From an uncultured bacterium (GTDB taxonomy: Bacteria; Actinomycetota; Actinomycetes; S36-B12; CAIYMF01): 64,000 nt of DNA. The stretch is from NCBI GenBank assembly GCA_903927265.1, contig CAIYMF010000152.1, positions 1 to 64,000 of the forward strand. The letters are read 5' to 3'. Each line of letters starts with the position of its first letter. Position 1 is the first letter of the stretch. Below the pieces are notes generated by a model. It saw only the letters and a list, made by a program, of their open reading frames with translations, was not told the origin of the DNA and did not search any database. Shown here in pieces: positions 41,796 to 54,687 of this stretch. Made by a program: the position numbers and the translations under genes.

Positions 41796-43004
41796 TCACG
41801 TCCCAGCGATCTCGCGGGCCCGAGTACGGGCCCAATCATCAGCAGAAAGAACGTCGTCAATCGTCAGTTCGTTCCCCTGACTGACCGTACCGCTCTCGGT
41901 GTGCTCGGTGAGTACACGCGCCACGGAGTCGACGATGGCCAGGAATGGCAGTCGGCCGCCCAGAAACGCCTCGACACACACCTCATTCGCCGCATTGAGA
42001 ACGGCTGGGGCCGTTCCGCCGATTTCACCGGCCGTGCGCGCCAGACCAAGTGCTGGGAAGGCCTCATGGTCGACGGGCTCAAAGGTCCAGGCGGTGGCGG
42101 TAGTCCAATCGCACGCTGGAACCGCGTCGGCGACCCGGTCGGGCCACCCCAGTCCCAAAGCGATCGGAAGGCGCATGTCTGGCGGGCTGGCCTGAGCCAG
42201 CACAGAGCCATCGGTGAACTCGACCATCGAGTGCACCACTGACTGGGGATGCACCACCACGTCGATGTGGTCGAATGGAATTCCGAAGAGCAGATGCGCC
42301 TCGATGAGTTCCAGACCCTTGTTCATCAGAGTTGCGGAGTTGGTGGTCACCACAGGTCCCATCGCCCACGTCGGGTGAGCGAGTGCCTGTTCGGGAGTAA
42401 CTGTTGCCAGGTCGTCACGTGTTCGCCCGCGGAAGGGACCACCGCTCGCTGTGAGAATCAGCCGACGCACTTCGCGCTCTGATCCGCCGCGCAGACACTG
42501 CGCAAGTGCGCTGTGCTCAGAGTCGACCGGAATGATTTGGCCCGGAGCCGCAATGGCGGTCACCAAAGGCCCACCGACGATGAGTGACTCCTTGTTCGCG
42601 AGCGCCAAGAGTCGGCCCGATTCAAGTGCCGCCAAGGTCGGGGCCAATCCGATCGATCCGGTGATGCCATTGAGGACAACATCGCACTCCCACGCGGCGA
42701 CTTTCGTGGCAGCGTCGGGCCCGGCCAGAATTGCCGGCATCCGGAAGTTACCTGCTTCGTACCCCTGTTCGCGAGCGGCCGCGAAGAGCGCGAGTTGCAA
42801 CTCCTGAGACGCCGTAGCGCTGTGAACGGCGACGACCTCCGCCCGACACCGCACCGCTTGCTCAGCCAACAACCGCACACTCGCATCGGTGCTGCCGCCG
42901 GCCGCCACGCCCACCACAGTGAATAGTTCAGGATTGCGCGAGATCACGTCGAGGGCCTGAGTGCCAATGCTCCCAGTTGACCCAAGGATCACCACGCGAC
43001 GCAT
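41796..43004 (-). CDS. dxr: 1-deoxy-D-xylulose-5-phosphate reductoisomerase
   Basis: 402 residues. The NADPH-binding N-terminus is [18 protein letters not shown]. The metal and substrate segments are [29 protein letters not shown] and [11 protein letters not shown], then [21 protein letters not shown]. It makes methylerythritol phosphate, the first committed compound of the pathway that also needs ispG. It is divergent from the aminotransferase gene with a 41-base gap. Confidence 0.95.
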
Positions 43005-43032
43005 CCCCCCAACCTACTTGCTGCATGGGTTC

Positions 43033-43038
43033 TATGCT
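43033..43038 (+). promoter_or_regulatory. Putative -10 element for a leaderless aminotransferase transcript
   Basis: TATGCT lies 7 bases before the ATG at 43046 and no ribosome binding site is visible, so transcription may begin at the start codon. The gap to the divergent dxr start is only 41 bases. Confidence 0.4.
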
Positions 43039-43045
43039 GATCGCC

Positions 43046-44392
43046 ATGACCGATCACGCGATCACCACCGTCCCCCAAGAGCGCCGACTCGTCACCGAGA
43101 TTCCCGGCCCGCTCAGCCTTGAACTTCAAGCCCGCCGTATCGCGGCCGTCAGCGCCGGCGTTGGTGGAACCATTCCCGCCTTCATCACCGCGGCAGGCGG
43201 CGGCATCCTGGTCGATGTCGATGGAAACCACCTCATCGATCTGGGGGCCGGAATCGCGGTCGTCAACGTTGGAAACTCCGCGCCTCGCGTTGTTGATGCC
43301 GTTACCGAGCAGGTGGCAGCGTTCACACACACGTGCTTCATGGTGACTCCCTACGAGGGTTACGTCGCTGTCTGCGAGGAACTCAACCGACTCACCCCGG
43401 GCGACTTCGCCAAGAAGTCAGCGCTGTTCAATTCAGGCGCCGAGGCCGTCGAGAACGCGATCAAGATCGCCCGGGCCCACACCGGCCGTCAGATGGTGGT
43501 CGTCTTCGAACACGGCTATCACGGCCGTACCAACCTCACGATGGCAATGACCGCCAAGAACATGCCGTACAAAAACTCTTTCGGTCCGTTTGCCCCCGAG
43601 GTCTACCGCATGCCGATGTCGTACCCATTCCACGACGGCGGGCGCAAAGGCCCGGAAGTGGCACTTGATGTGATCTCACGCATCGACAAGGAACTCGGCT
43701 CGCAGAATGTGGCCGCGATCGTCATCGAACCGATCCAGGGCGAAGGCGGCTTCATCGTTCCCGCGCCCGGCTTCCTGGGTGCCCTTCGCGAATTCGCCAC
43801 CGACAACGGCATCGTGTTCATCGCCGACGAAATCCAGACCGGCTTCTGTCGCACGGGCGACTGGTTCGCCTGCGATGACGAGGGAATCGTCCCCGACATG
43901 ATGACCACTGCCAAGGGAATTGCCGGCGGCCTTCCGCTCGCAGCCGTGACGGGCCGCGCTGACATGATGGACAGCGTGCACGTGGGCGGCCTCGGCGGCA
44001 CCTACGGCGGAAACCCGCTTGCCTGCGCCGCAGCACTCGGCGCCATTGCCACCATGACCGAACTTGATCTCAACGCGGCGGCTCGGCGGATTGAATCGAT
44101 CATGCGCACGCGACTCGAGGTGATTGCCGCCGAAACTGGCGTCATTGGAGATATCCGCGGACGAGGAGCCATGATCGCCGTTGAGATTGTGAAACCCAAC
44201 TCCTCAACGGCCGACCCCGATCTCACCAGTCGAGTGGCCAAGGCATGCCACGCTCAGGGCGTCGTGGTGCTCACGGCCGGCACCTACGGCAACGTGCTGC
44301 GTTTCCTGCCGCCCCTTGTGATTGGCGACGACCTCCTCAACGAAGGCCTCGACGTGCTCGAGGCCGCTTTCCGAACGGAGACGGCGCTGTAG
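43046..44392 (+). CDS. gabT: 4-aminobutyrate aminotransferase-like class III PLP aminotransferase
   Basis: 448 residues from ATG 43046. Class III features: LIDLGAGIAVVNVGNSAPRV, ALFNSGAEAVENAIKIAR for PLP phosphate binding, EHGYHGRTNLTMAMTAK, VFIADEIQTGFCRTG with the aspartate that contacts the PLP ring nitrogen, and the Schiff-base lysine in TTAKGIAGGLPLAAVTG. These match GabT, which moves the amino group of GABA to 2-oxoglutarate. Neighbouring polyamine genes fit GABA as the substrate; related enzymes act on beta-alanine, so this gene could also serve the pyrimidine operon downstream. Confidence 0.85.
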   Translation: MTDHAITTVPQERRLVTEIPGPLSLELQARRIAAVSAGVGGTIPAFITAAGGGILVDVDGNHLIDLGAGIAVVNVGNSAPRVVDAVTEQVAAFTHTCFMVTPYEGYVAVCEELNRLTPGDFAKKSALFNSGAEAVENAIKIARAHTGRQMVVVFEHGYHGRTNLTMAMTAKNMPYKNSFGPFAPEVYRMPMSYPFHDGGRKGPEVALDVISRIDKELGSQNVAAIVIEPIQGEGGFIVPAPGFLGALREFATDNGIVFIADEIQTGFCRTGDWFACDDEGIVPDMMTTAKGIAGGLPLAAVTGRADMMDSVHVGGLGGTYGGNPLACAAALGAIATMTELDLNAAARRIESIMRTRLEVIAAETGVIGDIRGRGAMIAVEIVKPNSSTADPDLTSRVAKACHAQGVVVLTAGTYGNVLRFLPPLVIGDDLLNEGLDVLEAAFRTETAL

Positions 44393-44486
44393 CGACCCAC
44401 CGTGGTCCGCTGCGCTCGGTAGTTGAGGTACCCTCAGCAGCACTCCGCCCGCATCGCCGCAAGTGGAGAATCCAAGGAGTTTCCTC

Positions 44487-46370
44487 ATGCGCGGTTCCCG
44501 AAAAGTTCTGATCGCAACCCTCGCGGTTGGACTCAGCGCCACTGTCCTCAGCCCGCAATTCGCATCGGCGAGAACCCCGGGTGAACAACCCCAGCCGGTG
44601 ACATCCAGTCGCGTCACACCACAGGCGATCACTCCCGCCGGGCTCAGCCGCGAACTGCGCGTCGGAGCCAACGGACCAGCCGTCACTCGCATTCAGCAAG
44701 CACTGCTTTCACGCGGCTACGAAATCAAGGGCATGACGATTCGTGGCGGCCCGGCGCGGTTCGGTCACCTCAACGCGGCGACGATGGCAGCGATTGTGAA
44801 GTATAAGAAAGACACAGGACTCGGCAGTGCACCCGTAGTCACCGACAAGGTCTACCAATCCATTCTCAAGGCGACGGATCCGCGCCCGAATTTCATCGTC
44901 ATCCAGACCGACGACATGATCGTTGATGACCTGATGGCGACTCCCGAGATCAAGAGGTTGATCGGCGATGCAGGTGCCACCTTCACACAGGCACTCACGC
45001 CCTTCGCCCTGTGCTGTCCTTCGCGAGCGGCCATGATGACCGGTTGCTACCCCCACAACAACGGCGTGCAGTCGAACTTCCCTCCATCGGGTGGTTACGT
45101 ACCGTGGGAGAAGAACAACGGCACCAGCTTCGGGGCCTACTGGATGCAGAGCGCGGGCTACCACACCGTGCACGTTGGCAAGTACATCAATGGTTATGGC
45201 ATGTACAACCGACCCACCGTGCGCGTTCCTTCGGGTTGGAGTGAATGGCACGGATCAGCCGACCCGTCGACCTATCAGATGTACGGCTACCGCCTCAACG
45301 AGCCAAGTCGTCTCAATCCATTCGGCAGCACCGTGTACGGCGATTTCTACACCGAGGATGCGCAGAAGTACGGCACAGACGTTTACACGGCCAAGGCACT
45401 GCGCGTCATTGATCAACAGGCGCGCCAGCGCGCGCCGTTCCTCATCCAACTCGCCTACCTCGCTCCGCACGTCGAAACCCTGCCTCTCACCGACGGCACA
45501 TGGAAGGACAGCTGGGCCGACGTTGACAAGCCCGCAGCCGGTTCGGGCATTGACATTCAATCGATTCCCCCGCGGGCGGCGCTGCGCCACCAAGCGATGG
45601 ATCTCGACGGCATTGCCCTTCCGCAAGACCCCAGCTTCAATGAGGCCGACCGCTCTGACAAGCAGTCGTTCGTGCGTAACCTGCCGGCCCTGACCTCGGA
45701 CGATATCGAGGAGTTGCGTCTGGACAACATTGCCCGGAAGCGCTCACTCTTCGCCGTCACAGAGGGTGTGGGCGCCATCGTCGCGCGACTCAAGGCTACC
45801 GGCCAACTCGACAACACCTACATCGTCTTCACGGGCGACAACGGTTACATCTTGGGCCAGCACGCCATCACCTACGGCAAATACTTCCCGTACGAACCAG
45901 CGCTCCGTATTCCGATGATGATGCGTGGACCGGGCATCCCAGCCCACACCGTCATCGATGGCATCACGTCGGAAATGGACATCACTCCCACCATTCTCGA
46001 ACTCGCAAAGGTGAAGGCCACTCGTCCGATCGATGGAATCTCACTGCTGGGTGTCATGACGAAGAAGAAGGCCCTTCCGTCGCGAACCATCTTGCTGTCG
46101 AGCGGACCTCAACAGTCGGCCAACGGAACTCCGCTCCCCCTCTTCGATGGAGTGCGAACCGCTGGCTACGCGTGGTGGGTCTACGAGGACGGTTTCGAGG
46201 AGATGTACGACCTCAGCGCCGACCCCTACGAATTGCAATCAGTCGTTCAGAATCCCGCGTACCTCAAAACCAGGCTCGCGTTGATCGCCGAATGGCATCG
46301 AATGAAGGACTGCAAGGGTGCCGTCTGTCAGCGGCCCACGCCCGACATTCCTGACCCGGTCTCGTCGTAA
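44487..46370 (+). CDS. Secreted sulfatase with an N-terminal peptidoglycan-binding-like domain
   Basis: 627 residues from ATG 44487, AAGGAG eight bases upstream. Signal peptide residues 1-28 (cleavage after FASA). Residues 55-128 form a wall-binding-like domain (LRVGANGPAVTRIQQALLSRG, then RFGHLNAATMAAI, VYQSIL). The sulfatase domain follows: IQTDDMIVDD metal ligands, the formylglycine site C176 in CCPSR, VHVGKYINGYG, and FTGDNGYILGQH. A modified-cysteine sulfatase needs a formylglycine-generating enzyme, not seen in this window. The end is a Cys-bearing tail (DCKGAVCQRP). The substrate is unknown, and a phosphonate or phosphate ester hydrolase is also possible. Confidence 0.86.
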   Translation: MRGSRKVLIATLAVGLSATVLSPQFASARTPGEQPQPVTSSRVTPQAITPAGLSRELRVGANGPAVTRIQQALLSRGYEIKGMTIRGGPARFGHLNAATMAAIVKYKKDTGLGSAPVVTDKVYQSILKATDPRPNFIVIQTDDMIVDDLMATPEIKRLIGDAGATFTQALTPFALCCPSRAAMMTGCYPHNNGVQSNFPPSGGYVPWEKNNGTSFGAYWMQSAGYHTVHVGKYINGYGMYNRPTVRVPSGWSEWHGSADPSTYQMYGYRLNEPSRLNPFGSTVYGDFYTEDAQKYGTDVYTAKALRVIDQQARQRAPFLIQLAYLAPHVETLPLTDGTWKDSWADVDKPAAGSGIDIQSIPPRAALRHQAMDLDGIALPQDPSFNEADRSDKQSFVRNLPALTSDDIEELRLDNIARKRSLFAVTEGVGAIVARLKATGQLDNTYIVFTGDNGYILGQHAITYGKYFPYEPALRIPMMMRGPGIPAHTVIDGITSEMDITPTILELAKVKATRPIDGISLLGVMTKKKALPSRTILLSSGPQQSANGTPLPLFDGVRTAGYAWWVYEDGFEEMYDLSADPYELQSVVQNPAYLKTRLALIAEWHRMKDCKGAVCQRPTPDIPDPVSS

Positions 46371-46381
46371 CTGCTGTGAAC

Positions 46382-46412
46382 GCCCGCCTCGTCAGTCACG
46401 TGCGAGGCGGGC
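46382..46412. terminator. Bidirectional terminator after the sulfatase
   Basis: GCCCGCCTCG (46382-46391) pairs with CGAGGCGGGC (46403-46412) around an 11-base loop and is followed by TTT. It lies 12 bases after the sulfatase stop and just before the convergent stop of the dehydrogenase-like gene at 46415. Confidence 0.8.
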
Positions 46413-46414
46413 TT

Positions 46415-47647
46415 TCACAACGGCTGGTGTGTTGCCGGGTCGCGTTCCTGAACGACCCACTGCTGGCCATAACCATCGCGCAGTAGGTCGAGGAACGGCA
46501 CGGCATCGAAGGCCTCGGGACCGAGAACTCCAGAGCCCGACCATGCACCGGTGGCAAGCAACTCAAGGGCCACCACCGGGTTCATCGCGGTCTGCCACAC
46601 GACTGCCTGCGCTCCGTACTCGCGCATCGTCCACTCGTTGTCAGCAACGTGGTAGAGGTACACCTCACGCGGAGATCCATCCTTACCAGTTCCAGTCACC
46701 CACAGACCTGCGCAAGTCTTTCCGCTCATCTTGTCGCCGAGAGTGAGTGGGTCTGGAAGGCACGCCGCGACCACGTCACGCGGACTGACGTCGACTCCCT
46801 TGACCTTGACGGACTCAACACGGTCAAGGCCCAACTTGTTGAGCGTCTTGAGTACCTCGATGAATTCGTCACCGAGACCGAACTTGAACGTGACGCGCTT
46901 GGCATCAATCCAGCGCGGCATCAGCAGCACTTCTTCGTGCTCGACATTGACGCACTCAACGGGGCCAATGCCTTCGGGGAAGTCGAACACCTCGGGCTCA
47001 CTAAATGGGGGCGTCGTGAACCAGCCGCGATCCTTCTCCCAAATCACCGGCGGGTTCAGGCACTCCTCAATGGTGGTCCAGATCGAGAACGACGGCGCGA
47101 ATTCGTAGCCTTCGACGACGAGGTTTGAAGCGTCACGCACACCAAGTTCATCGATTGAGCTAAACAGGTGGTCTGCCGCGTAGCGGCCGAACACGTCGGC
47201 AAGTCCGGGTTCAACGCCCATGCCGACGAGCGCCAGTCGACCAGCAACTTCCCACTCGACGGCGTCGTCGAACTGCGCATCACCGAGTTTGATTCCGACG
47301 TCTTCATAGGGCCGCTCGGCATGCTTGCTCGACAAACTCATCGCCGTATCGAGGTAGTCGGCTCCGGCCAACAGGGCGCCCCGGAAGATCGGCAGCACAA
47401 ATCTCGGATCGACCGCATTGACCACATGTGTGATTCCAAACGCTCTGGCCAGTTCAACGATTGATTCAGACTCCGAGGCATCAATTTCAGCCGCGATAAA
47501 CCGTGAATCGTTGAGCCGCTCGACCAGCGTCTGAGCACGTGCGCGGTCGTAATCGGCAATCACCACCTGCTCGAAGAAGTCGCGCCGCGCCGCAATGAGG
47601 GCCATCGACGAGCCAACTCCGCCTGCACCCACGATGAGGATTCGCAT
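46415..47647 (-). CDS. Saccharopine dehydrogenase-like NAD(P)-dependent enzyme
   Basis: 410 residues from ATG 47647 with GGGAGA about five bases upstream. The N-terminal Rossmann motif is ILIVGAGGVGSSMALIAAR; VVNAVDPRFVLPIFRGALLAGADYLDTAM and LALVGMGVEPGLADVFGRYAADHLF are typical of the saccharopine dehydrogenase/carboxynorspermidine synthase family. These enzymes form or cleave secondary amines. Its place in a polyamine block raises the possibility of a carboxy-polyamine substrate, but sequence alone does not show it. It is divergent from the APC permease gene. Confidence 0.82.
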   Translation of the reverse strand: MRILIVGAGGVGSSMALIAARRDFFEQVVIADYDRARAQTLVERLNDSRFIAAEIDASESESIVELARAFGITHVVNAVDPRFVLPIFRGALLAGADYLDTAMSLSSKHAERPYEDVGIKLGDAQFDDAVEWEVAGRLALVGMGVEPGLADVFGRYAADHLFSSIDELGVRDASNLVVEGYEFAPSFSIWTTIEECLNPPVIWEKDRGWFTTPPFSEPEVFDFPEGIGPVECVNVEHEEVLLMPRWIDAKRVTFKFGLGDEFIEVLKTLNKLGLDRVESVKVKGVDVSPRDVVAACLPDPLTLGDKMSGKTCAGLWVTGTGKDGSPREVYLYHVADNEWTMREYGAQAVVWQTAMNPVVALELLATGAWSGSGVLGPEAFDAVPFLDLLRDGYGQQWVVQERDPATHQPL

Positions 47648-47736
47648 ACCGTCTCCCTGAGTTCGGTTCTGGGGATAGTGTCCCACTATCGGGGCCCTCT
47701 ACCCGGGGGCGGGTGACACAGCGAGGGGAAGTCGAC

Positions 47737-49524
47737 ATGTCGACCACATCGAACGAGGCAACACACGGAAGCGCACCGGGCGAAAAAGGACTCAAAGGCG
47801 GCTCACTCGGCCTCGTGTCGAGCATCGTCGTTGGAATGGCGTCGACGGCGCCCGCGTACTCGCTGGCCGCCAGCCTCGGCCTCGTGGTGGTGGCACTCGG
47901 CCCCGATGGAATGAAAGCGCCGGCCATCATGCTGGTCGCCTTCATCCCGATGTACTTCATTGCGGTCGCGTATCAAGAGATGAACAAGGCAGAGCCAGAC
48001 TGCGGCACCACCTTCACGTGGGCAACCCGCACCTTCGGCCCGTGGGTGGGCTGGATGGGTGGCTGGGGAATCATCGCCGCCGACGTCATCGTCATGGCCA
48101 ACCTCGCCCAAGTCGCCGGTTCGTACAGTTTTTACTTCCTCGGTGAAATTGGGTTTACCAACATCGCTGAACTTGGCGACAGCGTGTTCTGGTCAACAGT
48201 GGCTGGCCTGATCTGGATCGCTGTCATGACCTGGATCTGTTTCCGCGGCATCGAAGTCTCAGCGCGGGTCCAATACGCACTGCTGGGCATCGAAGTGATC
48301 GTGCTGGTTCTGTTCGCGGTCGTGGCCCTCGTCAAGGTCTACACCGGCGACGCCGAGTCGTACTCACTCACTCCTGAACTGTCGTGGTTCTGGCCCGGAG
48401 GCCTCGACATCGGCACGGTCGTGGCGCCGGCACTTCTTGCTGCGGTCTTCATCTATTGGGGCTGGGACACTGCCGTCGCCTGCAACGAAGAAGCCGAAGA
48501 CCCCAGCACCACGCCAGGTCGCGCCGCTGTCATTTCCACTGTGCTGCTGCTCGTGACGTACGCGCTAGTGACTGTTGCCGCAGTTGCATTCGCCGGCATT
48601 GGCACCGAAGGAGTCGGACTGGGCAACCCGGAAAACTCGGCTGACGTCTTCGGGGCTATTGGCCCTGACCTCTTCGGCGACAGTACCCTGGGCAAGATCG
48701 GACTGCTGCTCTTGTCAGCATCGATCCTGACCTCCGCGTCGGCATCGACACAGACCACGATTCTTCCCACCGCACGTACGGCATTGTCGATGGCCGCCTA
48801 CCGGGCCATTCCTCAGAAGTTTGCTCGCATTCACGACAAGTACCTCACCCCCACGTGGGCCACCATCGGCATGGGCGTGGTGTCAGCGGCCTTCTACCTA
48901 CTCTTCACGCTGGTCAGCCAGAACCTGCTGCTGGCCTTGATCAGTTCGGTCGGCCTGATGATCGCGTTCTACTACGGGCTTACCGGATTTGCGTGCGCAT
49001 GGTTCTATCGCAAGACCTTCATGAAGAGCGGCCGCGACTTCGTGATGCGCTTCCTCCTACCGTTGCTCGGAGGCATCATCTTGTTCGTCGCCTTTGTCTA
49101 CGCGCTCAAGGTGTATGCCGACCCCGCGTGGATCACTGACGAGAACGATGAGCCCATCACCATCTTCGGAATTGGAGCCGTGGCCGTCGTCGGTATTGGC
49201 GCCCTGATCCTGGGGGTCATTCTGATGGTGTGGCAGCGCGTCACCACACCTGCATTCTTCAAGGGCGAAACGCTACCCATGAAGAGTCACGACCTCATCC
49301 TCGTTCCCGCCGGCAACGAGCCCCTCTTTGAAGGGTCGCCGCAGCCCGACTCCGCACTCGTTCCCACGGTGCTCGCACCCGACCTGTCGAACTTGCCCGA
49401 GGGTGCTCAGGTCTACGACCCGGTTGCCGACCGCATTCTGTCTGAAGAGGAAGTTGAGGCAATCGAGGAGGAAGCCGAAGCTCCGCCCCAGTCGGCAGGC
49501 GAAAAGCCCGAGGGTGACGACTAG
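47737..49524 (+). CDS. APC-family amino acid/polyamine permease
   Basis: 595 residues from ATG 47737, GAGGGG eight bases upstream. About twelve membrane helices; the N-terminal GGSLGLVSSIVVGMASTAPAYS and the EPDCGTTFTWATRTFGPWVGW segment are typical of the amino-acid permease (APC) family. The C-terminal 95 residues are hydrophilic with an acidic tail (EEEVEAIEEEAE). Substrate likely an amino acid or polyamine given the neighbours. The stop lies in a CTAG shared with the convergent agmatinase-like gene. Confidence 0.86.
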   Translation: MSTTSNEATHGSAPGEKGLKGGSLGLVSSIVVGMASTAPAYSLAASLGLVVVALGPDGMKAPAIMLVAFIPMYFIAVAYQEMNKAEPDCGTTFTWATRTFGPWVGWMGGWGIIAADVIVMANLAQVAGSYSFYFLGEIGFTNIAELGDSVFWSTVAGLIWIAVMTWICFRGIEVSARVQYALLGIEVIVLVLFAVVALVKVYTGDAESYSLTPELSWFWPGGLDIGTVVAPALLAAVFIYWGWDTAVACNEEAEDPSTTPGRAAVISTVLLLVTYALVTVAAVAFAGIGTEGVGLGNPENSADVFGAIGPDLFGDSTLGKIGLLLLSASILTSASASTQTTILPTARTALSMAAYRAIPQKFARIHDKYLTPTWATIGMGVVSAAFYLLFTLVSQNLLLALISSVGLMIAFYYGLTGFACAWFYRKTFMKSGRDFVMRFLLPLLGGIILFVAFVYALKVYADPAWITDENDEPITIFGIGAVAVVGIGALILGVILMVWQRVTTPAFFKGETLPMKSHDLILVPAGNEPLFEGSPQPDSALVPTVLAPDLSNLPEGAQVYDPVADRILSEEEVEAIEEEAEAPPQSAGEKPEGDD

Positions 49525-50537
49525 CGCCCGTCCAGCAAGGGCTGGCTCGGATCCCACGTCGATCCTTCACGTAGATCGCGCTGGCGGCGCGACATGGCCG
49601 AGAGGGCTTCCAGTACGACGCGGTTGCCCAGCACGGCGGTGATGTCGGCGTGGTCGTAGGGGGGCGACACTTCAACGACGTCCATACCGAGGATGGGTAG
49701 CTCGTACGCAATGCGTCGTACCGCGTCGAGCAGTTGACGCGACGACAGTCCACCTGGCTCAGGAGTTCCCGTTCCAGGCGCATGCGCTGGATCGGCAACG
49801 TCGATGTCAACGCTCAGAAAGATGCCGTCGCACTCATCGAGGGCGATTGCGAATGCCTCCGTCAGACACTCATCGAGGCCTCGGGCGACGATCTCGGTCA
49901 TCTCGTATGAACGCATGCCCTGCTGCGCCATCCATTCAAGGATGTCGGGCGGCGGCCAGTAACCACGCAAACCAATCTGTAGGAAGCGATCACCACGGGC
50001 GGCTCCACTCTCAATGAGTCGACGCATGGGCTGCCCGTGCCCGATCAACGAGCCGAACTCGATGTCGCCCGTGTCGGCGTGGGCATCGAAATGCAGAACA
50101 GCGACGCGGCCCCACTTGTCTGAACCGCGAGCTACTCCGGTGACGTCGGGCCAGGTAATCGTGTGGTCACCTCCCAGGATGAGCGGAATCTTTCCGGCCG
50201 CAGCCACCGTCTCGACAGCCTTCTCAAGATCGGCGCACGATCGGGCAGCGTCACCCGAGTACATCTCCACATCGCCGGCGTCCATCACCGCGAGGTCAAC
50301 TAATCCGTCTGTGCGCATCGCCATCGACGGCCGCGATCCATCGTGCGAATTGTTGTCGGTCTCGCGCATCGCCTTCGGGCCGAATCGTGCTCCGGCGCGA
50401 TAGGAGGTTCCGCCATCAAAGGGTGCCCCGAGAATCACGACCTGCGCATCGGCCCACGTCTCCGGCTCATCGAGAGTGCATCGTGGCACTCCCAGAAAGG
50501 TGATGTCAGGGCCGAACTGAGTTCCATAACGGGGCAT
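49521..50537 (-). CDS. speB: Agmatinase-type ureohydrolase
   Basis: 338 residues from ATG 50537; the Arg-rich in-frame extension upstream is rejected. All manganese-binding motifs are present: GGDHTITW, HFDAHADTGD and SVDIDVADPAHAPGTGTPEPGG. The N-terminal QVVILGAPFDGGTSYRAGARFGP is typical of bacterial agmatinases and guanidinobutyrases. It hydrolyses agmatine (or 4-guanidinobutyrate) to putrescine (or GABA) plus urea. Either product fits the neighbouring genes. No urease genes are seen. Confidence 0.85.
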   Translation of the reverse strand: MPRYGTQFGPDITFLGVPRCTLDEPETWADAQVVILGAPFDGGTSYRAGARFGPKAMRETDNNSHDGSRPSMAMRTDGLVDLAVMDAGDVEMYSGDAARSCADLEKAVETVAAAGKIPLILGGDHTITWPDVTGVARGSDKWGRVAVLHFDAHADTGDIEFGSLIGHGQPMRRLIESGAARGDRFLQIGLRGYWPPPDILEWMAQQGMRSYEMTEIVARGLDECLTEAFAIALDECDGIFLSVDIDVADPAHAPGTGTPEPGGLSSRQLLDAVRRIAYELPILGMDVVEVSPPYDHADITAVLGNRVVLEALSAMSRRQRDLREGSTWDPSQPLLDGR

Positions 50538-50676
50538 GACCGTCAGACTAGCCAGCCGCGCACTCGCCCGTCTCCACCTTCCCCTTCCCCCGCCCCCACT
50601 TCTCCGCGCATTCATCGGTGAGTGAGGATATTCGCCGCCTTTAAGACCACTGCGTGATGAACTCGCGCGAACATGT

Positions 50677-50708
50677 CGAGTCCGAACCCGGGCTCGGGTT
50701 CAGGCTCG
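50677..50708 (-). terminator. Hairpin after the transglycosylase-like gene
   Basis: CGAG-TCC-GAACCCG (50677-50690) pairs with CGGGTTC-AGG-CTCG (50695-50708) around GGCT, with a three-base internal mismatch. It lies 12 bases after the stop codon of the gene at 50720, so it probably ends the rpf-like operon. No U-tract is present. Confidence 0.6.
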
Positions 50709-50719
50709 GGCACCGGGGG

Positions 50720-51505
50720 TCAGTACCAGCCACCCCACCATTGGGTGGGGTCTTGACCGTCCTGCCACGCGCCCTGCGCCTTCCAGAACGCCCATGCCTT
50801 GCAAGGACTGCCGTAGCGGTCACGGATGTAGCGCAGCCCCACCTCGACCTGAACTTCAGGAGCGTTTCGGTAGGCCGACTCGCTGTAGCCGTAATCGTTC
50901 GCCACGCCGATGGTGGTCTGCGGAATCCCGACGTACTTGCCGGTGATCTCGCGGTACTGCCAGTGCGACTCGCCAATCCACATGGGCCGTAAACAGGCCA
51001 TCTGTTGGGCAGCATTCCAGCCGTAAGCACTCATCCGGCGGCTTGCGTACCACTTGGCATACGACGGAGAACTCCACGAATAGGGGGAAGCCGCTCGCAC
51101 CTTCGACCACTTTGAGCCCGAACTGGCGCCCGCACTTGATCCCGACTGCCAACCCGTGATTGCGGCGTAGGTCTTGGGGCCCACCGCACGACTGGGACCG
51201 AGATCGTGCGATGCCTTGAATCGCATGATCGTCGCCATCGTCGCAGCGCCAAGGAAACCAAATCTCGATCCGGAACTACTGGTCGTCAGACCCGAGATGC
51301 GGTAGCCCTTGCTCAACAGACCCTTTTGCACTGCGACAACGGCAGCGCCCTTTGAGCCAACGATCAGATTGCCAGGGAATGCCGGAACAGACGCGCGAGC
51401 GACGGCTCCCGCCGCAGGAGCGGCACCGGCAGCCGTCACAGAAGTGAGCGGGCTAGCCGCAATGATGAGCGCCACCAGAGAGACGCCCAGAGTTCGAGTG
51501 CGCAT
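50720..51505 (-). CDS. Secreted lytic transglycosylase-like protein with wall-binding-like domain
   Basis: 261 residues. Signal peptide about 1-26. Residues 43-118 are the same domain as in the two neighbours (LIVGSKGAAVVAVQKGLLSKG, RFGFLGAATMATI, KTYAAITG). The C-terminal domain (about 150-261) resembles the SLT-like transglycosylases of actinobacteria, with WIGESHW (probable catalytic E179), YVGIPQTTIG and GLRYIRDRYGSPCKAWAFWKAQG. It probably cleaves peptidoglycan glycan strands. Its ATG follows the Rpf-like stop by three bases, so both are in one operon. Confidence 0.82.
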   Translation of the reverse strand: MRTRTLGVSLVALIIAASPLTSVTAAGAAPAAGAVARASVPAFPGNLIVGSKGAAVVAVQKGLLSKGYRISGLTTSSSGSRFGFLGAATMATIMRFKASHDLGPSRAVGPKTYAAITGWQSGSSAGASSGSKWSKVRAASPYSWSSPSYAKWYASRRMSAYGWNAAQQMACLRPMWIGESHWQYREITGKYVGIPQTTIGVANDYGYSESAYRNAPEVQVEVGLRYIRDRYGSPCKAWAFWKAQGAWQDGQDPTQWWGGWY

Positions 51506-51508
51506 CGG

Positions 51509-52270
51509 TTAGTACGCCGTCGTCCAGGGTTCCCAGCCGCGGTCTCGCCAGTTGCGGTAGGCGATCACGTCCTGCTGGGCGCACGTGGCGAGGTTCGGGC
51601 GAGCAGCAAACGCCAGCCCGCCGTAATTCGGCCACTCCCACATGTCCAGTTGCCACTTGCCCATGTACTTCCCGGACGGATTCGACACCGAACAGTCGCC
51701 ACCGGACTCGCGCACAGTGACCTTGCAACCCATGCGCGAATGTACGAAGGCAGTCAGGCTCACGGCTGCCCGCGCCGAGCGGCTACTCGCCGTCACAGTG
51801 GGATCGGAGAGGCTCGAGCACTGGTCAACGCTGGTGTAGTGAGGCGAACTCGAGGGAGCAGACGTCGTGGGTGCCGGCTTGGAAAGCCCATAGCCTGTGA
51901 TGGCCGCATAAGTCTTCGGTCCCACCGCGCGACTCGGGCCAAGGTTGTGTGAGGCCTTGAAACGCATGATTGTCGCCATGGTGGCGCTCGTGAGGTACCC
52001 GAACCGCGCACGTGAACTGCGCAGTGAGATTCCGGGAATGCGGTAACCCTTGCTCAGCAGCCCTCGTTGCACTGCTGCCACAGCCGTCCCGCGCGATCCG
52101 ACGACAAGATTGCCCGGGAATGGCGGGTTGGAGGTGCGCACGATGCTGGAGACGGAGGTTGGCGCCGGAGACGCTGTCGCCGTCGCTGCTGCCCCAAGGA
52201 GGGCACCTGCCACCATGGATAGCCCCACAGAGGCGGTCGCAAGGCGACGAAGCGGAAGTCCGGACTGCAT
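51509..52270 (-). CDS. Rpf-like secreted protein with wall-binding-like domain
   Basis: 253 residues. Signal peptide about 1-34. Residues 51-126 are nearly identical in pattern to the domain of the downstream gene. A Ser/Pro linker follows, then a C-terminal Rpf/transglycosylase-like domain (about 183-253): VRESGGDCSVSNPSG with probable catalytic E188, KYMGKWQLDMWEWPNYGG, and a final QDVIAYRNWRDRGWEPW. Resuscitation-promoting factors cleave peptidoglycan and stimulate growth. Four cysteines in the mature part suggest disulfides. A CRP-type palindrome lies 87 bases upstream of the start. Confidence 0.82.
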   Translation of the reverse strand: MQSGLPLRRLATASVGLSMVAGALLGAAATATASPAPTSVSSIVRTSNPPFPGNLVVGSRGTAVAAVQRGLLSKGYRIPGISLRSSRARFGYLTSATMATIMRFKASHNLGPSRAVGPKTYAAITGYGLSKPAPTTSAPSSSPHYTSVDQCSSLSDPTVTASSRSARAAVSLTAFVHSRMGCKVTVRESGGDCSVSNPSGKYMGKWQLDMWEWPNYGGLAFAARPNLATCAQQDVIAYRNWRDRGWEPWTTAY

Positions 52271-52356
52271 GGCTTGACGCTAATGGCCACTACGGCGACA
52301 GTGTCAGGCCCAACTGTCCGGATAGTGACCGTCCTCGGGGGTTTGAGGGCCTCATC

Positions 52357-52372
52357 TGTGACCCACGTCACA
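52357..52372. promoter_or_regulatory. CRP/GlxR-type operator upstream of the Rpf-like gene
   Basis: TGTGACCCACGTCACA is a perfect match to the CRP-family consensus TGTGA-N6-TCACA, in a non-coding 149-base stretch upstream of the rpf-like operon (start 52270). In M. tuberculosis the CRP protein Rv3676 controls rpfA, so the association makes biological sense. No CRP gene is in the window. Confidence 0.65.
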
Positions 52373-52419
52373 TGCCAATTCCCGCATAGTGACAATCCAG
52401 ACCTGCGGCCACGGTCAAC

Positions 52420-53838
52420 CTACGAGTCGAAACCCAACCCGAGCCGGTCGAGCGACCGCAGCCAAAGGTTCCGCTTTCCATCGAAACGATCGGCACGGTC
52501 AAGAGATGCCCGGGTCCACGAAATACCGACCGAACGCAAGGGCTCGGGAGGGAATGGCAGTGGCTTCGAGCGCACCATCTCAAGGCGGGTGCGTTCGGTA
52601 TCGCGTGATTCGAGGTGATCGAGCATGACCTCGGCACCAAATCGTGACGCGGCGACACCGAGCCCGGTGAACCCGACGACGTACGACAGTCTGCCGCCGA
52701 ATGCCCTCCCCCAGTAGGCGCAGAAGCGCGAGCAGGTATCGATGGCACCGCCCCACGCGTGCGTAAATCGAATGCCGCGTAACTGCGGGAAGGTGTCGAA
52801 GAAGTGCGTCGCTAACCGCAAGTACGACTCGTGGTCGTTCTCGAGATGCGGCCCAAACCCGTTATTCCAGTGGTATTCGGCGTCGTATCCTCCCCACAGA
52901 ATCCGGCCGTCTGCGGTGAGGCGGTAGTAGTGGAACTGGTTGCCGGCATCGCCGATGCCTTGCTCGCCGTGCCACCCGATGGCATCCCGTTGCTCACGGG
53001 TCAGCGGTTCGGTGACAAGCACGTAGTCGTACACGGGCACCACGTATTGACGAATACGTCGCAGCAACGGCGGGAACGCGTTAGTCGCGAGTGCGACCTG
53101 TGCAGCACGCACTGAACCGGCAGCCGTGGTCAGGCGCATGCCAGTGCCATCCTCGTCGACAGCGGTAACGGCAGTGCCTTCGTGAATACGCACCCCACGG
53201 TCAAGGCAGGCCTGACGCAGTCCCCACGCTAGCCGCGCGGGATTGACCAGCGCCGTTCCTCGACGATCGAGCACACCCGCGAGGTACGTCGGCGAATCGA
53301 CGAGCGACCGCACGGCATCGCGATCGAGAAACTCCAGGCCGAGGCCGAGACCATTTCCAAGTTCGACCGCCTCGCGCAGATCGTCTACTTGATGCCGGTC
53401 AACTGCCACATCGAGGCCACCTGACCTGCGGAAGTCGCAGTCGATGGAGTGCTCGTTGATTGTGTTTTCAATGGCGTCGAGATTGGCCTGCCCCATCGAC
53501 AGCAAGGTCGGCATCTGCTCGGGCCACCGCGATATTCCATTGCCAAGTCCGTGGGTCAACGAGTCGGCCATGAAACCGCCATTGCGGCCACTGGCCCCCT
53601 GCGCCACGCAATCACCCTCAACCAGCAGCACATCTCGTCGTGAGTCACGCTCGGCGGCCAGCAGGGCCGTCCAGAGACCCGTGAAGCCGCCCCCGACCAC
53701 GACCAGGTCTGCCGTGACGTCTCCCTCAAGCGCCACCGTCGGCTCAGGGCGTCTGGGGTCGTCGAGCCAAAAAGGCGTCAGAGCAGCATCGCCCAACGAA
53801 TTGGCATCGCGTGGTCGACCGTGACGTGCAAATGGCAT
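52420..53838 (-). CDS. FAD-dependent amine oxidoreductase (PuuB/DAO type)
   Basis: 472 residues. The N-terminal FAD motif is DLVVVGGGFTGLWTALLAAER, followed by LVEGDCVAQGASGRNGGFM. Later segments are ILWGGYDAEYHW and the C-terminal YVVGFTGLGVAASRFGAEVMLD with the second FAD contact. It resembles PuuB (gamma-glutamylputrescine oxidase) and related glycine/D-amino acid oxidases. The potABCD genes, separated by 3 bases, and an aldehyde dehydrogenase suggest that it oxidises putrescine or a derivative. No gamma-glutamylputrescine synthetase is seen in the window. Confidence 0.85.
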   Translation of the reverse strand: MPFARHGRPRDANSLGDAALTPFWLDDPRRPEPTVALEGDVTADLVVVGGGFTGLWTALLAAERDSRRDVLLVEGDCVAQGASGRNGGFMADSLTHGLGNGISRWPEQMPTLLSMGQANLDAIENTINEHSIDCDFRRSGGLDVAVDRHQVDDLREAVELGNGLGLGLEFLDRDAVRSLVDSPTYLAGVLDRRGTALVNPARLAWGLRQACLDRGVRIHEGTAVTAVDEDGTGMRLTTAAGSVRAAQVALATNAFPPLLRRIRQYVVPVYDYVLVTEPLTREQRDAIGWHGEQGIGDAGNQFHYYRLTADGRILWGGYDAEYHWNNGFGPHLENDHESYLRLATHFFDTFPQLRGIRFTHAWGGAIDTCSRFCAYWGRAFGGRLSYVVGFTGLGVAASRFGAEVMLDHLESRDTERTRLEMVRSKPLPFPPEPLRSVGISWTRASLDRADRFDGKRNLWLRSLDRLGLGFDS

Positions 53839-53841
53839 TGC

Positions 53842-54687
53842 TCAGCCCTTACGTCGAGCCCGGCCAACCAGCTGGGCAATCAGCACGATGGCCAAGGAAA
53901 TGATGAACATCGCCGAGGCAATGACATTGGCCTGCGGCGGAATTCCACGGTTTGCCGAAACGTAGACGAACTTCGGGAAGGTGTTGACCTGCCCTGAGTT
54001 GAAGTTCGTGATGATGAAGTCATCGAAACTCAAGGAGAACGCCAACAGTGCGGCCGCCGCGATTCCCGGAGCCAACAGGGGCAACGTGATGCGACGGAAT
54101 GCCTCACGCTCGTTGGCGTACAAGTCCATCGCGGCCTGTTCAAGTCGCGGATCAAGACTCGCCAACCGAGCTTTCACGGTGACGACCACGAAACTGATGC
54201 AGAACATGATGTGGGCGACCACGATCGTCCAGAAACCGAGCGGCACAAACAGGTTGAGGAACAACGCGAGGAGGGATGATCCGAGGACAACTTCGGGAGT
54301 CGCCATCGGCAGGAAGATCAGCAGGTTAGTACTTGCCCGGCCGCGGAAGCGATAGCGCACCAACGACAGCGCGATGAGGGTTCCGAGAGCTGTCGCCACC
54401 GCCGTGGCGATGAGACCGATCGCAAGCGAGTTGACGAGCGACCCGCATACTTCGGGAGCCCCACATGGATTGAGCCAGTTGTCGAGCGTGAATCCTCGCC
54501 AGACCAGGTTGCTCTTACCAGCGTCATTGAACGAGAACGCGAACGTGTACACAACCGGGAGCAGCAGGTAGGCGAAGGCAATCACTGCGTACAGTCGCAG
54601 CACATTGGAACCGAACCAACGCCATACGCGCGTGGGCGCGGACAACGTCCGCTGCGCGGGGGTGGGACTCTCAACAACCGCGCTCAC
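53842..54687 (-). CDS. potC: Spermidine/putrescine ABC transporter permease PotC
   Basis: 281 residues with six membrane helices. The permease loop EAFRRITLPLLAPGIAAAALLAFSLS (EAA-type) contacts the ATPase, and SFDDFIITNFNSGQVNTFPKFVY is the PotC-specific region. The ATG overlaps the potB stop by four bases. Confidence 0.93.
   Translation of the reverse strand: MSAVVESPTPAQRTLSAPTRVWRWFGSNVLRLYAVIAFAYLLLPVVYTFAFSFNDAGKSNLVWRGFTLDNWLNPCGAPEVCGSLVNSLAIGLIATAVATALGTLIALSLVRYRFRGRASTNLLIFLPMATPEVVLGSSLLALFLNLFVPLGFWTIVVAHIMFCISFVVVTVKARLASLDPRLEQAAMDLYANEREAFRRITLPLLAPGIAAAALLAFSLSFDDFIITNFNSGQVNTFPKFVYVSANRGIPPQANVIASAMFIISLAIVLIAQLVGRARRKG

Follow-up and report, generated by a model that had tools for sequence, protein, structure and literature searches.

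The PG_binding_1 family (PF01471) is ordinary and widespread; its domains have two DGxxGxxTxxxPho repeats, and Phe487 and Thr503 of ExeA are treated as critical residues (PMC12547810). In the order to which the genome studied here belongs, Rpf homologues from many genera in several families have an ordinary PG_binding_1-like stretch, in one or two copies, ahead of the Rpf domain, and two relatives of the aggregation-promoting factor (APF) type in the same family carry such a stretch as well, in both cases as judged by eye from the sequences. Because these ordinary versions occur in the same order, fusions of PG_binding_1 to Rpf or APF domains are conventional. Two of the proteins described below match them in domain order and in the kinds of catalytic domain, but the domains of the order's fusions (L105, L107, L098, L026, L082) are short and lack a long loop, and some are present in two copies. 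Only the long loop and a fusion to a sulfatase are unusual at this locus. Literature searches on such fusions returned few or no papers, and none on the fusion of a long-loop domain to a sulfatase.

A domain common to a sulfatase and two hydrolases

The window, the whole 64,000-nucleotide stretch that was analysed, encodes three predicted secreted proteins with a common N-terminal domain. The sulfatase gene is read on the forward strand from a GTG at 44463 to 46370 (635 aa; PF00884 134 bits and PF16347 57 bits, both above cut-off), although an in-frame ATG at 44487, directly before a signal-peptide-like stretch, is the likelier start. On the reverse strand, the first hydrolase gene (50720..51505; 261 aa) joins an N-terminal PG-binding-like domain to a transglycosylase-like APF C-terminal domain (NF052397, 50765..51004; 60.1 bits against a cut-off of 40). 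The second (51509..52270, also reverse; 253 aa) encodes an Rpf-type transglycosylase, in which the N-terminal PG-binding-like domain is followed by PF06737 (51515..51721; 44.7 bits against a cut-off of 27) and which matches solved RpfB structures.

The first-pass annotation had proposed that all three open reading frames share one domain, and all three do. The domain spans about 73 residues (44652..44870 on the forward strand in the sulfatase; 51152..51370 and 51893..52111 on the reverse strand in the APF-type and Rpf-type proteins), and the copies align without gaps, with 30 of the 73 columns invariant. When the Rpf copy was used as a query against the whole genome, it recovered the APF copy (78% identity, E = 1e-32), an M23 peptidase on another contig (66%, 1e-26) and the sulfatase (46%, 5e-15), followed by four weaker matches, two on NlpC/P60 proteins and two on other secreted proteins. 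The resemblance is well above chance. A tripeptide, FPG, directly precedes the 73 residues in the M23 (L011), APF, Rpf and C18 (L013) copies, and ITGW directly follows them in the M23, APF and C18 copies; the sulfatase has neither motif.

The two hydrolases had been described as almost identical over the domain, with DNA that is similar as well. Their identity is 78% at the protein level, against 44-46% between either hydrolase and the sulfatase, and the DNA is indeed similar (68%). However, only 36% of third codon positions agree (dN 0.15). Because these positions are saturated, we attribute the DNA likeness to protein constraint and not to recent copying; the domain pair is old. The saturated third positions of the domain, and the presence of the pair in both this genome and its sister genome, also led us to reject the possibility that the two hydrolases were recently duplicated in tandem or homogenized by gene conversion.

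The domain belongs to the PG_binding_1 fold class

Against PF01471, for which the curated Pfam cut-off is 23 bits, the window copies scored 19.5 bits (APF, profile positions 2-57), 18.9 bits (Rpf, positions 1-57) and 13.0 bits (sulfatase), each below cut-off and the first two over the full length of the profile. We therefore label these copies PG_binding_1-like by profile. Paralogues of the wider clade in the same genome scored 29-36 bits, above cut-off.

An AlphaFold model of the domain, built from seven copies, had a pLDDT of 91 and the three-helix PG-binding fold (helices 9-20, 42-55 and 65-72). Its best Foldseek matches in the PDB, with TM scores of 0.72-0.76, were the PG-binding domains of AP3 endolysin, phiKZ gp144, SleC, SleB and L,D-transpeptidases; E-values for this 73-residue model reached 7e-3 at best, and the top matches are proteins that carry a PG-binding domain. 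Matches to CtpB and EpsAB, both given as carriers of the domain (PMC12547810), were also recovered. Searching the PDB with the sequence profile of the domain retrieved PG-binding proteins at 4e-6, several of them the same as the fold matches, and across the phylum the profile aligned end to end with ordinary PG_binding_1 domains. The full-length Pfam alignment, the fold matches and the end-to-end profile alignment together bear out the earlier view of the module as a divergent form of PG_binding_1 that carries additional loop residues. The module is a lineage-specific, long-loop variant of ordinary PG_binding_1, and not a new kind of module.

The likeness to the family extends to a G-x-x-G-x-x-V-x-x-(L/V)-Q-x-x-L start and to an N-terminal place on secreted wall enzymes. 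Where the module differs is in length, being about 8 residues longer before the first repeat. The first-pass annotation had placed the conserved RFG motif inside the insertion. Alignment to ordinary PG_binding_1 domains ruled this out: D-G-V-F-G of the ordinary domains aligns with F-G-V-L-G here, so that RFG sits on the first canonical DGxxGxxTxxxPho repeat, with F in place of D, and the ordinary domains are about 8 residues shorter just upstream. In the Rpf copy, the extra residues are SLRSSRAR (52004..52027, reverse strand; domain positions 29-36, edges uncertain by 1-2 residues), between GYxIxG and the FGxL repeat; they fall in the gap of the profile alignment and are reflected in the spacing between a conserved Q and T, which is 29 in the window group, 26-27 in the looser paralogues and mostly 21 in those ordinary domains of relatives that the pattern caught.

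The repeats are only partly kept. The first reads FGFLGAATMATI in the APF copy and FGVLGTATMATI in the M23 copy, which keep GxxGxxTxxxPho and lose only the D; the Rpf and sulfatase copies additionally lack the second G. In the hydrolases the second repeat retains GxxT, as GPKT; its sulfatase counterpart has degenerated to TDKV (T to V at position 67, G to T). DG is thus altered in both canonical repeats, to FG in the first and to SR, or in some copies SP, in the second. By position relative to the repeats, ExeA Phe487 and Thr503 would correspond to F/Y51 and T67 of the domain; F/Y51 is kept in all four copies, T67 in the hydrolases, with V in the sulfatase.

Distribution of the long-loop form and its host proteins

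Of the 395 genomes sampled from the class, a strict profile of the four hosts (Rpf, APF-type, M23 and sulfatase) found the long-loop form in 2, which belong to a single genus out of 138; these figures depend on which genomes were sampled. With a looser profile, a single additional protein, from G098 in another family of the order, proved to have a comparable loop. Among the sampled genomes, therefore, the strict form is confined to one genus. The first-pass annotation had reasoned that a widely distributed PG_binding_1 domain of normal length would make the module ordinary; this holds for the family, but not for the long-loop form, which exceeds the normal length and, in this sample, is not widespread. 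The genus also has ordinary PG_binding_1 domains. A tree built from 29 domains united the four strict copies, on the Rpf, APF, M23 and sulfatase proteins, in one clade (support 98/97) and placed all long-loop copies together with G098 at a moderate 83/93. A phage origin of the module was considered and set aside, as phage records contained no match.

One module does stand before different catalytic domains, as had been proposed: strict copies lie on the Rpf-type, APF-type, M23 and sulfatase proteins, and looser paralogues occur on further secreted proteins, NlpC/P60 among them. Two adjacent NlpC/P60 proteins (C117 of this genome, 3092-4667, L015 and L016; see also L070) each carry a long-loop copy, and L015 and L016 continue after it into a second conserved, repeat-like C-terminal region that ends in AGFRV; the C18 protein ends in AGFTV.

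We compared the sulfatase with its orthologues outside the genus. None of the nine in the alignment (52-66% identity) has the domain; in each, only a short linker separates the sulfatase part from a signal-peptide-like stretch, judged by eye. Since these orthologues lack it, the fusion is most simply read as a gain in this genus.

The genes between the sulfatase and the hydrolases are presumably, as we name them by eye from sequence, saccharopine-dehydrogenase-like, amino-acid-permease-like and agmatinase-like. With such genes in between, and with copies of the domain on four other contigs as well, the proximity of the three genes looks incidental, and we rejected a wall-related gene cluster on the same grounds. 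When positions 41796-54687 were compared with the sister genome (L068), third-position identity was 0.97 in the permease gene (47737-49524), 0.88 in the gene preceding it and about 0.65 in most flanking genes; the sharp change around the permease gene looks like a recombination tract.

The sulfatase retains its active-site residues

The formylglycine-type signature CCPSR (residues 184-188; 45012..45026, forward strand) and the metal-site and catalytic residues DD 150-151, DNG 459-461 and K473 are invariant in 15 aligned sequences. The full-length model (pLDDT 68 overall, with a poor N-terminus) was used for fold class alone and not for packing; the folds closest to it are those of S1 carbohydrate sulfatases, led by BT4656. 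The window protein shares the fold, the CCPSR signature and the metal-site residues of BT4656 (an S1_11-type GlcNAc-6-sulfatase, PDB 5g2v), but adds the N-terminal wall-binding-like domain, and identity of about 22% is too low to name a substrate.

Maturation of the sulfatase in this genome is uncertain. A radical-SAM maturase scored above cut-off in the draft sister genome (G001); this genome, also a draft (G000), gave only a partial FGE-like match (L125, contig C203) and no radical-SAM match. Four more genomes from the order that encode orthologues of the sulfatase (G048, G054, G104, G125) gave no match to an FGE-type or radical-SAM maturase, an absence that is uncertain in drafts.

Discussion

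Judging by the fold, the host proteins and the placement of the domain behind the secretion signal, its most likely role is to anchor exported enzymes in the wall of the cell that makes them. In the account that we consider probable, the long-loop form would have arisen from ordinary PG_binding_1 in or near this genus and been copied between genes within it. After secretion, this non-catalytic domain with its 8-residue longer loop would tether whichever enzyme it is joined to within the peptidoglycan of the same cell; Rpf-, APF- and M23-type enzymes would thereby act on the wall, and the sulfatase would stay at the surface. Most proteins that carry the module belong to wall-enzyme types (Rpf, APF-type, M23, NlpC/P60), which counts in favor of such an anchor. 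Several points count against it: the PF01471 scores below cut-off, the altered DG repeats, the modest Foldseek E-values, the 83/93 support of the long-loop clade and, in the sulfatase copy, V67 in place of the second-repeat threonine, the putative equivalent of a critical residue of ExeA.

This last point bears on the reading that the sulfatase copy alone is a relic or spacer that does not bind, left by a chance fusion, which would be compatible with anchoring by the other copies. Its degenerate second repeat (T to V, G to T), its 13 bits against PF01471 and the orthologues that manage without the domain all fit, but both genomes have retained the domain, their copies being 89% identical in protein sequence, and a dN of 0.06 against a dS of 0.47 shows that it is under constraint. 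Moreover, Pseudomonas SltB2, likewise without that threonine, has such a domain reported to bind peptidoglycan (PMC12547810), and we consider a relic unlikely.

Alternatively, the extended loop and the changed DG motifs could have redirected the domain toward a wall component particular to the lineage, a ligand of the kind that the first-pass annotation had raised as possible; a modified glycan strand and a secondary wall polymer are examples. The strict form is found in one genus only, the Q-to-T length rises from 21 through 26-27 to 29 in related copies, and the RFG repeat is conserved across host genes and across both genomes, as such a ligand would lead one to expect. The genus nevertheless retains ordinary PG_binding_1 domains, and the extra loop varies between host proteins, so such a redirection seems rather improbable. 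The fuller proposal, in which the enlarged loop confers a genus-specific wall ligand and domain shuffling has directed a surface sulfatase as well as wall-remodelling activity to one lineage-specific site in the wall, strikes us as slightly more doubtful still. Least probable is that the domain chiefly regulates its enzyme, as a pro-domain or a docking surface on the catalytic domain, with wall binding not its main role: PG_binding_1 packs against other enzyme domains in SltB2 and SltB3 (PMC12547810) and proMMP structures are among the weak fold matches, but the same module precedes unrelated catalytic domains, through variable low-complexity linkers in the hydrolases, which disfavors any one specific interface.

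The module itself is a limited surprise. The locus offers a clean, small example of domain shuffling, in which an ordinary wall-binding domain acquired a lengthened loop within one lineage and was afterwards put on enzymes that are without it elsewhere, a sulfatase among them. The domain-free orthologues of that sulfatase make the effect of an anchor directly testable, and, if the sulfatase is anchored in the wall, the genus would keep the breakdown of sulfated glycans at its own surface.
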